Shown here: positions 7,029 through 60,960 of the stretch, piece by piece
Numbering within the stretch: the stretch's first letter is position 1
How the letters are laid out: each line of letters begins with the position of its first letter
Translations under genes and position numbers: made by a program
IMG/VR virus record: IMGVR_UViG_3300042934_000313
Location: 1-61,491 of that record
Source of the DNA: a virus
Length of the DNA stretch: 61,491 bases
Reading direction: 5' to 3' (one strand)
Notes under the pieces: model-generated
What the model was told of the DNA's origin: nothing
The model's database searches: none
Seen by the model: the letters and a program-made list of their open reading frames with translations, nothing else

Positions 7029-7175
7029 ATGGCGTGCGCCTGTGGAACCAAGAAGCCCGTCTCGTCTACGACGTACGTTCACACGTCGCCGACCGGCGAG
7101 CAGAAGACCTACAAGACCGAGGTCGAAGCCGCCGCCGCTACGCAGAGGCTTGGCGGAACGTACCGCCCGCAGTAG
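7029..7175 (+). CDS. 48-residue cysteine-containing protein
   Basis: A short gene starting at ATG 7029, two bases after the protease stop. The product begins MACACGTKKP, continues with a Thr/Tyr-rich TYVHTSPTGEQKTYKT strand pair, and ends in AAAATQRLGGTYRPQ. Short proteins of this design (N-terminal Cys-x-Cys, Ala-rich helix, GGTYR ending) often sit between protease and capsid genes in actinophages, where they resemble DUF7196. Role unknown; head assembly is suggested by position. Confidence 0.7.
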   Translation: MACACGTKKPVSSTTYVHTSPTGEQKTYKTEVEAAAATQRLGGTYRPQ

Positions 7176-7187
7176 CATCAGAGCACT

Positions 7188-44352: not shown

Positions 44353-44385
44353 GGCTCCTCCTCGGTTTGTGACAGGTCTGCTCTA

Positions 44386-44403
44386 TACATGAAACAACGT
44401 CAC
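44386..44403. repeat. Left arm of 18-bp inverted repeat
   Basis: TACATGAAACAACGTCAC; perfect reverse complement at 44470-44487, separated by 66 bp rich in TGTGAC repeats. Confidence 0.9.
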
Positions 44404-44469
44404 TGTGTCACAGGTTGTGACGTTGTGACACAAGTTGCGTACTCAGAGAAGGCCCTAGGTTGTGACGTT

Positions 44470-44487
44470 GTGACGTTGTTTCATGTA
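44470..44487. repeat. Right arm of 18-bp inverted repeat
   Basis: GTGACGTTGTTTCATGTA; partner of 44386-44403. Overlaps tandem GTTGTGAC copies. Confidence 0.9.
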
Positions 44488-44506
44488 AAGGGGTGACGTG
44501 TCACAA

Positions 44507-48208: not shown

Positions 48209-48928
48209 TCAACTGTCGAAAGCAATGAGCAACCTCACCCTGGTCTTGTCGTCGTCGGGAGCGACGAGCCGCATCGCGGCCAGCGTTGCCCACCATGCAC
48301 GACCCGCCTCTTCGCGGATGGTCTGTCCGGTCCACCTGATGTGGACTGCGGTCTGCCCCTCGCCACGCTCGCCCGCGTCGTACTCCTCCTCGGTCACGAT
48401 GCGGAGGCCGGGGCCACCGACCTGTCGTGCGATCTGGCCAGGCAGTTCGCCCGTCTCCTTGTACTTGAGGTACTCCGCCTCGACGACGACACCATCTTCA
48501 TGAAGCACCTGGTCCCACATCGGGTGCTGATCGTCGAGTTCGTCGAGCGTGAACCACGTTGCCGAGTGGATGCCGTCCTGTCTGGCGAACATCTGCCATG
48601 CGGGGTCGGCGTCCAGCGGGATGCCGCGCGGCTCACTGATCGGAACGATCGGCTCGTGCCCGCCGTCATCCATGTCGTACTCGATGTCGATGGGGCCGTG
48701 GTCCGGGATGTCGTGATGGATGATGGTCACACCCATCCGGCCGGTGCGATTCACCACATCGGCGAGCAGGCTGAACAGACCGTACTTCCGCTCTATCTCG
48801 GGGTTCGGTCCGAGCGGGGACCTGCCTGTCTTGCGCCAGGTCTCAGGCTGGGGGAAGAGGGGGAGGGTGCACATCTCCCAGCCCTCATCCGTCTTGACTT
48901 CGACCATCGCGTGGGCGTCTGTGCCCAT
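48209..48928 (-). CDS. Hypothetical 239-residue protein
   Basis: Begins MGTDAHAMVEVKTDEGWEM, an opening common to a phage protein family of unknown function with alternating strands and acidic loops. No catalytic motif identified. ATG 48928 is preceded by a polypurine GAGAGAAAGAGAGAGACGG leader and palindrome site 19. Confidence 0.6.
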   Translation of the reverse strand: MGTDAHAMVEVKTDEGWEMCTLPLFPQPETWRKTGRSPLGPNPEIERKYGLFSLLADVVNRTGRMGVTIIHHDIPDHGPIDIEYDMDDGGHEPIVPISEPRGIPLDADPAWQMFARQDGIHSATWFTLDELDDQHPMWDQVLHEDGVVVEAEYLKYKETGELPGQIARQVGGPGLRIVTEEEYDAGERGEGQTAVHIRWTGQTIREEAGRAWWATLAAMRLVAPDDDKTRVRLLIAFDS

Positions 48929-55891: not shown

Positions 55892-55906
55892 GAAAGTCTG
55901 ACTTTC
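55892..55906. repeat. Palindrome site 29 (centre T)
   Basis: GAAAGTC-T-GACTTTC, perfect, about 40 bases after the start of promoter C, between two hairpins. Confidence 0.93.
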
Positions 55907-56640: not shown

Positions 56641-56655
56641 GAAAGTCAGACTTTC
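56641..56655. repeat. Palindrome site 31 (centre A)
   Basis: GAAAGTC-A-GACTTTC, perfect; gives QKV-TGA to the upstream gene and lies two bases before the next ATG. Confidence 0.93.
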
Positions 56656-57140
56656 TGGGGCTCGGCATCCCGGACAGCGGGACGCTGACGCCACTTCTCC
56701 TCGTGCCCCGTGCGTGCAGGCACGCCGAGGGCGAGGTTGAGTTCGTACACCGAGAGCGGCGTCTCGTGACGGGACAGCACGACTTCGGTGCCCATCGAGT
56801 GGTCGTGCGCGGCGTGGCCGAGGAGCACGATGAGTCGGCCGATGGAGACCCACTGCGGCTCATACGTGAACTCCTGAGAGTCCACCCCTTGGCAGTCGCA
56901 CCCGTTGCACTCGAACGTGACCCAGTGCTCGTTGTCCGTCTCCGAGACGGCTCGGTAGTACAGCAGAGCGGCCACCTGTTCGGGCGTACGCGGCTGTGTG
57001 ATGAGCGGCTTGCAGACCTTGCAGGTGACCTTCTTGAGCACCTGCGTGGAGTTGCCGCTCTGTTGGCAGGCGTTGAAGGTGAACGCCGAGTTGTCGACCG
57101 CGTTCACGTCCCTCACCGCCGAGGCGATTTGCCAGTGCAT
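56646..57140 (-). CDS. Hypothetical 164-residue protein
   Basis: ATG 57140 follows GAGAGAGAAGGAAATC. CKVCKPLITQPRTPEQVAALLYYRAV and CNGCDCQG form possible zinc sites, followed by VLSRHETPLSVYELNLAL. Ends inside palindrome site 31. Reminiscent of host-takeover proteins but unrecognised. Confidence 0.6.
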   Translation of the reverse strand: MHWQIASAVRDVNAVDNSAFTFNACQQSGNSTQVLKKVTCKVCKPLITQPRTPEQVAALLYYRAVSETDNEHWVTFECNGCDCQGVDSQEFTYEPQWVSIGRLIVLLGHAAHDHSMGTEVVLSRHETPLSVYELNLALGVPARTGHEEKWRQRPAVRDAEPQKV

Positions 57141-57182
57141 GATTTCCTTCTCTCTCTCTCTTCTCTGTGGTTCGGACTTGGA

Positions 57183-57197
57183 GAAAGTCCGACTTTT
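57183..57197. repeat. Palindrome site 32 (centre C)
   Basis: GAAAGTC-C-GACTTTT in the leader of the 164-residue gene. Confidence 0.9.
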
Positions 57198-57223
57198 TGG
57201 GTGCCGATTCGCGGGCACAGCAA

Positions 57224-57247
57224 GCACCCCGAGTTTCTTCGGGGTGC
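57224..57247 (-). terminator. Hairpin between two early genes
   Basis: GCACCCCGA and TCGGGGTGC around a 6-nt loop, directly after the stop at 57256 leftwards. Confidence 0.7.
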
Positions 57248-57255
57248 CCACTCTG

Positions 57256-57480
57256 TCAGCGAGGTTCGCCGTGGCAGATGCCTCCGGCATCCGCGATCTG
57301 GTCGGTGCACGCAGGGACGCCGTTGAAGGGGTCCGCGTGGTCGATCGCGAACTGTGCCGCCATGCCGAGGCAGAAGGCGACGAGTGACGCGACGATGACC
57401 GTGATCACGGCATCCCAGCGGACGAAGAATCCTGAGCGGTGACGCACGCGGTATCCGGTGCTGTCGACTTCGGTTTCCAT
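57256..57480 (-). CDS. Single-TM protein with periplasmic-type loop
   Basis: A 74-residue protein. TM helix at residues 24-46 (AVITVIVASLVAFCLGMAAQ) then a segment with two Cys (ACTDQIADAGGICHG) that may form a disulphide outside. ATG 57480 follows AAGAGAGAGAGATTC. Membrane role unknown. Confidence 0.65.
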   Translation of the reverse strand: METEVDSTGYRVRHRSGFFVRWDAVITVIVASLVAFCLGMAAQFAIDHADPFNGVPACTDQIADAGGICHGEPR

Positions 57481-57506
57481 GAATCTCTCTCTCTTGTGTC
57501 GGTCCG

Positions 57507-57521
57507 GAAAGTCGGACTTTT
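57507..57521. repeat. Palindrome site 33 (centre G)
   Basis: GAAAGTC-G-GACTTTT in the leader of the TM protein. Confidence 0.9.
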
Positions 57522-57631
57522 TGGCTGGCTTCCCGGAGGGCGCGACAGACAGAGGCCGGACGCGGAAGTCCTAGGTCCGAGCGTTGAGCGGATATCCCGC
57601 CGCGCGGAGAGCGTGCCTGTCGTGCCGTCGA

Positions 57632-57646
57632 GAAAGTCAGACTTTT
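57632..57646. repeat. Palindrome site 34 (centre A)
   Basis: GAAAGTC-A-GACTTTT in a 198-bp stretch without a gene (57522-57719), next to a small GCGC hairpin at about 57661-57676. The stretch holds nothing else I can name apart from the repeat arm at 57690. Confidence 0.9.
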
Positions 57647-57689
57647 TCGAGTGAGACCCAGGCGCGTTGAAGCGCCCTGTCTGGGATGA

Positions 57690-57716
57690 GCGTTAGTCGC
57701 CAAGTCACGGCACGCC
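57690..57716. repeat. Left inverted-repeat arm, cassette C
   Basis: 27 bp, 23/27 complementary to 57954-57980. The outer 11 bp (GCGTTAGTCGC) pair perfectly and are unique to this cassette. Encloses the 64-residue gene. Confidence 0.85.
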
Positions 57717-57719
57717 TGG

Positions 57720-57914
57720 TCAGCGATTGGTGAGTTCGTCCCACGTCGTGCCGTGGATTCGGTGCGCGTAGGACGCGCGAGCACGGACGAGGGATTCGGC
57801 GGGCGTCAGCATGGCGTCGCGTTCGAGGGCGGCACGCTCGGAGTTCGCCCGAGTGAAGTCGGGCGACGCGATGAGTGCGCCGAGTTCGTCGAAGGTGAAG
57901 CGGTACTCAGTCAT
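57720..57914 (-). CDS. Hypothetical 64-residue protein (cassette C)
   Basis: YRFTFDELGALIASPDFTRA, then ERDAMLTPAESLVRARASYA; helical, with an LTPAE helix start. Flanked by its own inverted repeat and preceded by palindrome site 35 with a 2-nt centre. Unrecognised. Confidence 0.65.
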   Translation of the reverse strand: MTEYRFTFDELGALIASPDFTRANSERAALERDAMLTPAESLVRARASYAHRIHGTTWDELTNR

Positions 57915-57929
57915 GGTGCCTCGTTTCTG

Positions 57930-57945
57930 GAAAGTCTGGACTTTC
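57930..57945. repeat. Palindrome site 35 (2-nt centre TG)
   Basis: GAAAGTC-TG-GACTTTC: perfect arms with one extra central base. Confidence 0.92.
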
Positions 57946-57953
57946 TGGGAGAG

Positions 57954-57980
57954 GGCATGCCGTGGCTAAGCGACTAACGC
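57954..57980. repeat. Right inverted-repeat arm, cassette C
   Basis: Partner of 57690-57716; begins GGCATGCCGTGGCTAAG and ends CGACTAACGC. Confidence 0.85.
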
Positions 57981-57989
57981 TTGTCCGGT

Positions 57990-58016
57990 GAGTCAGTAGC
58001 CAAGTCACGGCACGCC
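57990..58016. repeat. Left inverted-repeat arm, cassette B
   Basis: 27 bp, 22/27 complementary to 58358-58384. Outer 8 bp (GAGTCAGT) pair perfectly with ACTGACTC of its partner and differ from cassette C; inner part resembles the left arm of cassette C. Confidence 0.85.
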
Positions 58017-58022
58017 AATGGA

Positions 58023-58316
58023 TTAGATGCGGGAGAGTCGCTGGTATTCATTGTCGGCGGCGAGCATGCGCGCTTCCAGGAGGTCGACGCGATCGAAGTC
58101 GCGACGGTCCAGGGCGTTATCAGTGTGGTTGCTCAGCAGGATGCACAGATTGCTCAGGCGTCCGAGACGTGCCTCATCCGTCTCGCTGGGCGTGACGGTC
58201 ACCGTGAACCCGAGGTTCAGCAGGTGAGAGAGGGTCGCGTCGAGCACGGCACGGTTGATCGTTCGAGTCTGGTCAGTGCCACCCTCGAAGGGGGCGTGAA
58301 CAGTGAGAGTGATCAT
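58023..58316 (-). CDS. Hypothetical 97-residue protein (cassette B)
   Basis: Begins with strands (MITLTVHAPFEGG, LGFTVTVTPSE), ends helical (DRRDFDRVDLLEARMLAADN). Ferredoxin-like small fold possible. ATG 58316 follows CGAGGACAAC. Enclosed by cassette B repeats. No family. Confidence 0.65.
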   Translation of the reverse strand: MITLTVHAPFEGGTDQTRTINRAVLDATLSHLLNLGFTVTVTPSETDEARLGRLSNLCILLSNHTDNALDRRDFDRVDLLEARMLAADNEYQRLSRI

Positions 58317-58333
58317 GTTGTCCTCGATTCTCA

Positions 58334-58349
58334 GAAAGTCTGGACTTTC
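58334..58349. repeat. Palindrome site 36 (2-nt centre TG)
   Basis: GAAAGTC-TG-GACTTTC in the leader of the cassette B gene. Confidence 0.92.
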
Positions 58350-58357
58350 TGGGTTGA

Positions 58358-58384
58358 GGCATGCCGTGGCTAAGCCACTGACTC
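58358..58384. repeat. Right inverted-repeat arm, cassette B
   Basis: Partner of 57990-58016; inner part is nearly identical to the right arm of cassette C, outer part is private. Confidence 0.85.
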
Positions 58385-58390
58385 ACTTTC

Positions 58391-58422
58391 GGATACGGGA
58401 TCGCTAGATAGTCCGGTCCCTC
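58391..58422. repeat. Left inverted-repeat arm, cassette A
   Basis: 32 bp, 29/32 complementary to 59175-59206. Sequence unrelated to cassettes B and C. Confidence 0.9.
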
Positions 58423-58424
58423 AT

Positions 58425-58459
58425 GACGTGTGGAAGCGGTCGCTTCCGGTCAACACGTC
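58425..58459 (-). terminator. Hairpin after cassette A gene
   Basis: GACGTGT/ACACGTC outer stem and GGAAGC/GCTTCC inner stem, between the stop at 58483 and the repeat arm. Confidence 0.65.
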
Positions 58460-58482
58460 GGTACTACGAGGGTGTTGCGGGA

Positions 58483-59133
58483 CTACTCGGCGACGGAGAC
58501 GGCGGCGTTGGCCAGCAGGTCGCGCAGAGCGGCCTTCTGGTCGGCCGTCAGGCCGTCGAGCGTAGGGATCACCTGGAGGACGGCGACGATCGAGTCGAAC
58601 GTGATCGCCTCGTCGGCGTCCTTGTCGTTCGATCCACGAGCGCCCTTCTGATCGGCGTCGGCCTTCTTGTCGGCCTTCAACTTCTCCGTCTGCTTCTGGA
58701 ACGTCGAAGCAGGGTCGGCACCGTTCAGGATCGCCTCAATGGCGGGGATGACGTAGTTCTCTTCCTTCTTGCGGAAGGACTGCGACGCGAGGTTGAAGGA
58801 CGCCTTGGCGATGCCGTAGACATCGGCGTTCGTGGCCTCGTTGACGTCGACGTTCGCGCGGAGCATGTACTTCCACGCGTTGACCAGGTTGGTCACGCCG
58901 GGAACCGAGAGCGGTGCCTCGTGGTGACGACGGAGCGCCTCGTTGGCGTGCTTCGCGAACGTCTCCTTGAGTTCGGCCGCCTCTTTCCCTTCGGTCGAGC
59001 CGACGTACATGTACGTCAGACGTGCCTGGTGGAAGCGGAGCGAACCGCTGTCGGAGATGTTCGCGAACTCCTCGGCGATCTGGTCGATCGTCTTGGTCGC
59101 GGTCTGGACGGGGGCAGTTGCGGTCTTAGCCAT
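58483..59133 (-). CDS. Helical 216-residue protein (cassette A), first leftward gene
   Basis: An all-helical protein (TIDQIAEEFANISDSGSLRF, ETFAKHANEALRRHHEAPL, VTNLVNAWKYMLRANVDVNE) with a Lys-rich low-complexity linker (KADKKADADQKG) and a C-terminal helical hairpin. First gene of the leftward block, so probably expressed earliest and possibly a DNA-binding regulator; no definite HTH. ATG 59133 follows AGAAAGAGAGAGCC. Confidence 0.7.
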   Translation of the reverse strand: MAKTATAPVQTATKTIDQIAEEFANISDSGSLRFHQARLTYMYVGSTEGKEAAELKETFAKHANEALRRHHEAPLSVPGVTNLVNAWKYMLRANVDVNEATNADVYGIAKASFNLASQSFRKKEENYVIPAIEAILNGADPASTFQKQTEKLKADKKADADQKGARGSNDKDADEAITFDSIVAVLQVIPTLDGLTADQKAALRDLLANAAVSVAE

Positions 59134-59155
59134 GATGGCTCTCTCTTTCTGTCCA

Positions 59156-59171
59156 GAAAGTCTGGACTTTT
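59156..59171. repeat. Palindrome site 37 (2-nt centre TG)
   Basis: GAAAGTC-TG-GACTTTT in the leader of the cassette A gene. Confidence 0.9.
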
Positions 59172-59174
59172 TGA

Positions 59175-59206
59175 GAGGGACCGGACTACCTAGTCATCCC
59201 GTATCC
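59175..59206. repeat. Right inverted-repeat arm, cassette A
   Basis: Partner of 58391-58422; directly upstream of palindrome site 37 in the leftward direction. Confidence 0.9.
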
Positions 59207-59433
59207 GAGTCACTGAGAGACGCCGATGAGTGTCGGTATCGAGCCGCCAGGATTTTCCGGGTGGACCGAAGTCCAAGCCGTCAGCGGGGAGGCACCGATT
59301 GATGGGTGTCTCTCAGAGTGCGTTATCAGCAGAGGTATCCGGTCGCTGACCGCGTGTGCGGGGTCGTTGGATCATGCTGTCTCAGGCCATGCGGCCCGCG
59401 TTTTATCGGGGCTCAGACAATGCTGTAGCCACG

Positions 59434-59461
59434 CCCTCGCGTCGCGCGCGGGGGATTTTTT
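59434..59461 (+). terminator. Rightward rho-independent terminator in non-coding region
   Basis: CCCTCGCG pairs with CGCGGGGG (one G-T) around a 5-nt loop, followed by ATTTTTT. No rightward gene precedes it within this region, implying a short rightward RNA from 59.2-59.43 kb or a barrier to read-through. Confidence 0.7.
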
Positions 59462-59463
59462 GA

Positions 59464-59479
59464 AAAAGTCCCGACTTTT
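59464..59479. repeat. Palindrome site 38 (2-nt centre CC)
   Basis: AAAAGTC-CC-GACTTTT, immediately after the rightward terminator. Confidence 0.88.
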
Positions 59480-59502
59480 TGGACCTCCAGTCCTCGTTTC
59501 GT

Positions 59503-59525
59503 TGTACCCCCAGTCTAGGGGTACA
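59503..59525. repeat. 8-bp inverted repeat
   Basis: TGTACCCC and GGGGTACA around 7 bp; operator or hairpin in the non-coding region. Confidence 0.7.
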
Positions 59526-59853
59526 GCCCGCCGAATGCAACAGCGGCACTACGCTCTCCGTCTTGCTGTGCACATGCCTCATGGGGAACATAATGTGGTA
59601 CGGAATATACGAGGAGAGGTACAGACGTTATGTCCCACGGAATGGGCGGCGGGAGCCGCCAACACGGATGGTGCAGGGTCGAGAGTGGTGGGGGTAGAGC
59701 AGGGGGACTAGACAAGACAGAGGAAGATTCACGAGAGGGCCAAGAAAGCCCTGATCAGTAGCCGATACAAGGGCATCTAGGGGGATACCGCGCGTGAAAT
59801 ACCCCCATAGCGCGTACACTGCTAAGTGATACCTCCTACGATATGATTGAGGG

Positions 59854-60327
59854 ATGGAACAGCCGAGCAACGTCACTCCCCTCCGCCAGATCGGGCAGGT
59901 CATGGGTACCGGGGAACCGGTCCTGGGACCGAAGCCCTACACGGGGCAGAGACGCAAGGCGGCGAAGAAAGGACATCGCGTGGCCATGGTGGACTTCGAC
60001 CTCTTCATGCGGGTCGAGATGACGAACGCAGAGCACCAGGTGTACGCCGCGATCGTGCGGCACATCCCCGACCGGGGCGGCATCGAGTCGCGTATCGGCG
60101 TCGGCGAGATTGCCCAGATGCTCGGCGTCAAGCAGCCGAACGTCAGCCGCGTGATCAAGGACCTGCTGGAGCGCAACCTCATCCGCCGCGTCCGTCAGGG
60201 CGTCTGGCTGGTGAACCCGCACCTGGTCTACAACGGCGAGTTCGTGGAGTGGAACGAGAGCCTCTCGCACTGGGACGAGCCGGTCTATGCTCGTAACGTG
60301 GACCAGAACACGGGAGAGGTCAAGTAG
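59854..60327 (+). CDS. RepL-like winged-helix protein
   Basis: A 157-residue protein. Residues 55-115 (NAEHQVYAAIVRHIPDRGGI, VGEIAQMLGVKQPNVSRVIK, LLERNLIRRVRQGVWLVNPH) form a winged helix with the GVWLVNP ending typical of plasmid RepL-type or MarR/IclR-like proteins. The N terminus is basic. ATG 59854 follows GAGGG. It could be a replication initiator or the regulator that reads the palindromes. Confidence 0.72.
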   Translation: MEQPSNVTPLRQIGQVMGTGEPVLGPKPYTGQRRKAAKKGHRVAMVDFDLFMRVEMTNAEHQVYAAIVRHIPDRGGIESRIGVGEIAQMLGVKQPNVSRVIKDLLERNLIRRVRQGVWLVNPHLVYNGEFVEWNESLSHWDEPVYARNVDQNTGEVK

Positions 60328-60823: not shown

Positions 60824-60960
60824 GAGCGGGTGGAGTAGGCGCGCAGAGTCGCCTCGTTCTTAAGCCCCTCGCCAACTGTCGAACACAAACCCGACAGATA
60901 CGACTCTCCCACTCGGTATGCAACTTTCTGCAAGTGCTGGTCAGGGGCCTCCACCCGCTC
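60824..60960 (+). ncRNA. Candidate structured RNA, five helices and a possible pseudoknot
   Basis: In a 177-bp gap. P1 pairs GAGCGGGTGGAG (60824-60835) with CTCCACCCGCTC (60949-60960), 12 bp perfect. P2 is hairpin AGGCG/CGCCT (60837-60841/60850-60854). P3 pairs GCCCCT (60864-60869) with AGGGGC (60943-60948), contiguous with P1. P4 hairpin CTGTCG/CGACAG (about 60876-60898). P5 pairs CACT+TGCA (60910-60922) with TGCA+AGTG (60929-60936). Loop AGAGT (60845-60849) can pair with ACTCT (60903-60907). No known family recognised; strand inferred from neighbouring genes. Confidence 0.65.

Follow-up and report, generated by a model that had tools for sequence, protein, structure and literature searches.

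Why should three successive phage genes each lie within an inverted repeat of their own, and is it pairing across the gene that is preserved? The question is raised by the right end of a 61,491-nt stretch of viral DNA (the window; IMG/VR record IMGVR_UViG_3300042934_000313). Capsid protein comparison places the window as a phage near Microbacterium cluster EG. The capsid protein is 51% identical, over 69% of the protein, to that of Microbacterium phages such as Tempo, OneinaGillian and Squash, and the phage stands well apart from these. OneinaGillian and Squash are named as cluster EG phages in the accessible text of PMC7302621. All three enclosed genes are on the minus strand with the transcription order C, B, A, and gene C opens the leftward gene run at the right end of the 61.5-kb phage. 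The features are as follows.

59175..59208, minus strand: cassette C 5' arm; pairs with 58389-58422 over 34 nt, 91% complementary
59156..59171, unstranded: start-proximal palindrome in cassette C, 4-nt spacer form (repeat family D4)
58483..59133, minus strand: gene C, ORF of 216 aa, predicted all-helical; first gene of the leftward operon
58389..58422, minus strand: cassette C 3' arm; duplex with the 5' arm -63.8 kcal/mol
58358..58386, minus strand: cassette B 5' arm; pairs with 57988-58016 over 29 nt; A/B-type helix
58334..58349, unstranded: start-proximal palindrome in cassette B (repeat family D4)
58023..58316, minus strand: gene B, ORF of 97 aa
57988..58016, minus strand: cassette B 3' arm; duplex -49.0 kcal/mol
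57954..57986, minus strand: cassette A 5' arm; pairs with 57684-57716 over 33 nt, 82% complementary
57930..57945, unstranded: start-proximal palindrome in cassette A (repeat family D4)
57720..57914, minus strand: gene A, ORF of 64 aa
57684..57716, minus strand: cassette A 3' arm; duplex of the inner 28 nt -47.0 kcal/mol

Gene-enclosing arms and their distribution

An earlier note on this DNA had reported arms of 27, 27 and 32 bp, and its pairs 57690-57716 / 57954-57980 around gene A (23/27 matches), 57990-58016 / 58358-58384 around gene B (22/27) and 58391-58422 / 59175-59206 around gene C (29/32) are exact, base for base. As it also claimed, cassettes A and B have their inner arm sequence in common, and their private outer parts pair perfectly only with the partner in the same cassette; the arms of cassette C are unrelated to both. 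Own-partner RNA duplexes of cassettes A and B reach -47.0 and -49.0 kcal/mol, compared with -35.2 and -33.5 kcal/mol for swapped partners.

Relatives of gene C were found in seven virus contigs by searches of IMG/VR, and a repeat search with a wider alignment gave no further contig with a gene C relative. The gene is complete in six of these contigs (L001, L002, L003, L005, L006 and L022), and C-type arms surround it in all six; in L012 the contig ends within gene C and the 5' arm is present. An A/B-type pair lies directly downstream of cassette C in five of the six, L003 having no A/B cassette. With the window's three cassettes included, the comparison set comprises seven C-type and seven A/B-type cassettes, and these 14 sample only about five lineages. 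Pattern scans of IMG/VR for the arms added L012 and L013 (the contig source of L022) and otherwise returned contigs already found. One further pattern match, L014, was set aside as an unrelated chance match, and three arm matches in bacterial genomes were taken as chance because they had no partner arm.

In all 14 cassettes a gap of 33-49 nt separates the end of the 5' arm from the start codon, so the ribosome site is left inside the loop. The 3' arm starts 2-60 nt past the last stop codon, the two arms are 193-752 nt apart with the gene in between, and consecutive cassettes are separated by 1-7 nt in 7/7 cases.

Gene A is without a Pfam or PHROG match, and gene B has no relative among phage records or in IMG/VR. 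Protein C has no Pfam match and a single weak PHROG (function unknown); its AlphaFold model (mean pLDDT 81.6) has no PDB fold match at E <= 0.001. Searches by tblastn with gene C (window, L022 and L003 versions) and gene B found nothing in 50,697 phage records, and gene C has no match among plasmids or species genomes. In five EG-type phages, arms are present around the first leftward gene in none; the protein of that gene, which holds the position of C, shows no relation to C by profile matching.

The entire 61.5 kb was scanned for long-range inverted pairs. On the sense strand the three arm pairs score 29.4, 22.7 and 22.6, and in 40 dinucleotide-preserving shuffles, scanned on one strand only, the best pair had a mean score of 18.4 and a maximum of 22.5. 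The arm pair of gene C is far beyond chance; those of genes A and B lie above all 40 shuffles, but narrowly. The latter are taken as real because they are placed around consecutive genes and are conserved in relatives, and conservation is a stronger argument for the arms than the shuffle score. Other high scorers in the window are genome-wide GAAAGTNNNACTTTC palindromes, the near-local repeat at 44367-44506 and weaker pairs such as 29952/30927 (20.2). The near-local repeat is a 46-nt inverted repeat (44367-44412 and 44461-44506) with a loop of about 48 nt, and an inverted repeat of similar size, built of TGTTACAC repeats, is found at 7030-7076 and 7135-7181 of the related contig L027; perhaps these are replication origins.

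At a threshold of 21, the C pair was recovered in all four related contigs scanned (G001, G006, G007 and 20,000 of the 20,380 bases of G003) and the B pair in three, the B pair of L005 falling below threshold; elsewhere in these contigs there were no further cassettes scoring at least 21. Rhodococcus REQ2, Arthrobacter Zucker (49,992 of 53,491 bases), Microbacterium Tempo and T7 contain no pair scoring at least 21, save one Tempo start-site palindrome pair. A 73-base segment of the window (60828-60900) is about 92% identical to positions 48412-48483 of Rhodococcus phage REQ2, where no gene is annotated; the surrounding DNA is unmatched.

Covariation and predicted folding of the arms

A comparison of arms in related phages for compensatory changes, as the earlier note had proposed, reveals that arms of both types co-vary, and the C arms are kept with compensatory changes in all six relatives that hold the complete gene. 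The structures scored exclude internal-loop columns. In the C-type helix 181 of 182 cells are paired across the seven cassettes, both sides have changed in 10 of 26 pairs, and the covariation score is 0.346 versus 0.144 in shuffles (0/500 as high). The corresponding values for the A/B-type helix, also over seven cassettes, are 167 of 168 cells, 8 of 24 pairs, and 0.361 versus 0.158 (0/500 as high). Slid registers give pairing of at most 45% for the C type and 46% for the A/B type. The count of further pair types is not above shuffles, which were as high in 78/500 for the C type and 417/500 for the A/B type.

On a simple tree, the protein tree with two well-supported forks, the C arms have accumulated a minimum of 17 + 19 substitutions in paired columns and the A/B arms a minimum of 13 + 13, with one unpaired cell per set. 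Compared with L001 and L006, its near relatives, L002 shows clean double changes in each of the two helices, and the C arms of L003 each carry one extra base, the two being mutually paired as one inserted base pair. In 14/14 cassettes the own partner ranks first among the seven of its type or comes within 0.4 kcal/mol of the one that does. In the region 57000-60000 there are no terminator-like sites on the coding (minus) strand, the seven sites found being all on the plus strand. The claim that cross-gene pairing is the preserved feature is thus borne out by covariation in the relatives and by this lack of coding-strand terminator-like sites, and the pairing itself is very probably the selected feature, a conclusion that is well supported. 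Of the roles suggested in the earlier note, the 5'-3' panhandle of the mRNA is supported.

Several features bear on whether the helix is one of RNA. Pair 19 of the C-type helix is G-U in 7/7 cassettes and pair 12 of the A/B-type helix is U-G in 7/7. Internal mismatches of the C helix, which form a loop, are kept at a fixed place; the A/B helix has a U-U mismatch and one more mismatch, the latter shifted by one position between lineages. The sense RNA duplex is stabler than the antisense duplex in 13 of 14 cassettes, a modest preference that is reversed in L005B. Because of this exception, and because the A-C mismatches of the helices become G-U if read on the other strand, the strand argument for sense RNA is supportive, not decisive. 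Predicted helix energies range from -45 to -64 kcal/mol across cassettes. Fold predictions of the cassettes alone give end-to-end closure in 14/14, and five folds of 1.7-2.1 kb keep the helix in all 10 cassettes tested, including all three of the window. From the aligned arms and these predictions, the arms appear to form a long-range RNA helix that closes the ribosome site and the reading frame; the helix is conserved and gene-closing, and probably on the sense strand.

Processing stalks and competing readings

C-type arms enclose gene C in every case. Within the A/B arms lie seven main proteins; of their 21 pairings 20 are unrelated, the exception being L006 with L022 (67% identical). The A/B arms of L001, L002 and L006 are near-identical (0-2 differences in 28 per arm), and the only interior that these three slots have in common is a short 3' stretch, their main proteins being different. 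Near-identical arms around different main proteins mean that the envelope is older than its contents; the downstream slot retains its arms when the gene inside changes. At its 3' end this slot also holds a frame of 15-19 codons (MT-D/E-DIT-D/Q-WL...; L001 6923-6973, L002 5043-5090, L006 6932-6991), which is similar in all three despite the different main gene.

The best explanation, by analogy with known stalks and with roughly an even chance of being correct, is that the gene-enclosing helices act as RNase III-type processing stalks that free end-clamped single-gene mRNAs. The cassettes would be transcribed as one RNA, an early leftward transcript in which each gene, with its own ribosome-binding site, would be enclosed by a long-range helix of about 24-34 pairs, and since the helices abut, the transcript would fold as a row of closed one-gene loops. 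Host RNase III would cut these double-stranded stalks as it does those of 16S and 23S rRNA and so split the transcript into single-gene mRNAs, and the helix stub left on each piece would hold both ends together and shield them from exonucleases. Such a closed unit should work whatever its content, so that the downstream unit could exchange its gene and keep its arms. The long double-stranded RNA from distant complementary arms that is expected of an RNase III stalk is indicated here by covariation and folding prediction. No RNase III was detectable in the phage record, and the Corynebacterium control has one. A scan for sigma-70-like promoters found none, which leaves the transcript start unplaced. 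Against the stalk model, translating ribosomes and ongoing transcription could keep arms that are hundreds of nucleotides apart from meeting, and L003 lacks an A/B cassette. Tentatively, the locus may be an operon of exchangeable RNA envelopes, in which a split processing helix folds around any gene and releases an end-clamped, perhaps even circularised, mRNA, the envelope being conserved and the gene replaced.

The main rival of the stalk model is a pure clamp or translational fold-back, in which the helix is not primarily a cutting site and would shield the mRNA ends or delay translation until processing, as in type I toxin mRNAs. The same covariation and the same stable predicted helices argue for it, and aapA3 and hok (PMC6733600) and icaR (PMC3868564) provide precedents in the accessible parts of these papers. 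The reading is nevertheless somewhat unlikely, for the ribosome site lies outside the helix, unlike in icaR and aapA3 as there described, and an uncut series of abutting helices would leave the inner genes without free ends to protect. That the arms are mainly boundaries for the exchange of small genes between phages by homologous recombination, with pairing secondary, is improbable. The near-identical A/B arms around differing, mostly unrelated main proteins would fit such a role, but homology anchors should be conserved and not co-vary, and covariation is seen in the C arms too, whose gene is never exchanged.

Readings in which the arms act as DNA have less to recommend them. The inverted arrangement around each gene is what would be expected of two opposed copies of one site at which a phage protein binds and loops or inverts the gene, but in one phage the outer arms of the two A/B-type cassettes differ, each pair matching only within its cassette, mismatches are constant at fixed places, and all 14 cassettes are in operon orientation. 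This makes a DNA site very unlikely and tells against the invertible segments also proposed in the earlier note, conserved mismatches and G-U positions being unsuited to recombination sites. That small genes sit between inverted ends, and that the A/B type varies in content, could suggest the terminal repeats of small mobile elements. This is hardly credible, however, because the A/B type conserves its inner and not its outer ends, the cassettes are without a transposase and occupy the same place in all contigs, none being found elsewhere in the four related contigs at the scan threshold, and the C pair always surrounds the same gene. The proposal of mobile cassette ends is therefore without support as worded, although the part of it that concerns exchange stands, as the gene of the downstream slot is exchanged while the arms stay. 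The least probable reading is that of ordinary intergenic hairpins or terminators with cross-gene pairing as a by-product. The adjacent cassette B 3' arm and cassette A 5' arm could pair locally (-35.2 kcal/mol), but their cross-gene partners are better, C arms barely pair with A/B arms (-10 to -16 kcal/mol), and relatives with a single A/B cassette have no local partner yet retain the cross-gene pairing. Covariation likewise disfavours it, and the terminator alternative, which the earlier note had itself named as what would refute its view, finds no coding-strand site in 57000-60000 to rest on.

Relation to known systems

A close parallel to the proposed stalks is found in pre-rRNA, where distant complementary sequences, hundreds of nucleotides or more apart, likewise close a helix around a functional RNA unit (16S, 23S) within a longer transcript and are cut by RNase III. 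Young and Steitz reportedly described such a stalk in 1978, with arms 1700 nt apart (cited in PMC8708148). The phage units differ in that they are genes for proteins, each with a ribosome site of its own, and several follow one another; cutting is here the proposed step. The early mRNA of T7 is divided gene by gene by double-stranded RNase III sites, which are local hairpins between genes. The likeness lies in the gene-by-gene division and the difference in the pairs themselves, as the scan found no comparable gene-enclosing pair in T7 DNA. RNase III of B. subtilis, according to the accessible text of PMC11780869, cuts long-range duplexes in mRNAs, formed across distances above 100 nt. These too are duplexes within one mRNA, but the targets described there are scattered single cases, whereas in the phage every gene of the series has its own conserved helix just outside the ribosome site and stop codon. 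In the icaR, hok and aapA3 mRNAs both ends of the coding unit pair, as in the phage cassettes; in the available accounts (PMC3868564, PMC6733600) that pairing covers the Shine-Dalgarno region and blocks translation, whereas the phage helix is longer and leaves the region free in 14/14 cassettes.

Start-associated sequences and start-proximal palindromes of actinophages (clusters K and EG) are repeated features upstream of start codons that are local and stand before the gene only, as described in the accessible parts of PMC3203893 and PMC7302621. The ESAS of cluster K are inverted repeats just upstream of the start codon whose spacer is short, in the great majority of sites 4-13 bp (PMC3203893); the cassette arms, with a whole gene between them, do not have this form. 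The window's GAAAGTNNNACTTTC sites belong with the start-proximal kind and the cassette arms do not. Genome-wide, GAAAGTNNNACTTT palindromes with up to one mismatch have 67 strand matches versus 0.17 expected, many of them just before start codons (for example 55892-55905, 56641-56654 and 57183-57196). The GATCAACCNNGGTTGATC repeats of phages in cluster EG are of this kind too, as far as the accessible text of PMC7302621 describes them, and the window's palindromes are likely a regulator's binding site. The start-proximal palindrome is inside all three cassettes of the window and, by eye, outside the C arms in L001, L002, L006 and L022, which indicates an element separate from the arms. In L002 (4103-4137), L006 (5968-6000) and L022 (445-486) the place of the window's palindrome, downstream of the 5' C arm and ahead of the start codon, is taken, by eye, by a local hairpin with the GAGAG ribosome site in its 3' strand, possibly an extra translational control.

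Integron attC sites, retron repeats and self-splicing introns were dropped on their known features, and Rfam gave no match above the gathering score, neither for the right end of the window nor for five relatives. The earlier note knew of no described system with this layout, and no description of serial gene-enclosing helices was found in the literature searched, whose coverage leaves out subscription papers and preprints. The helices can be grouped, as a variant, with structures for long-range RNA processing or 5'-3' pairing.

Long-range pairing around coding sequences is already known from single mRNAs; here it is repeated gene after gene at the start of an operon. As the pairing is kept by compensatory change and survives gene replacement, selection seems to act on the pairing itself as its unit. 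This suggests a compact natural rule by which one transcript would become separate end-protected mRNAs, and it opens the role of gene-wide mRNA helices to direct test. It also points to a form of phage gene exchange in which an RNA structure would be the slot.
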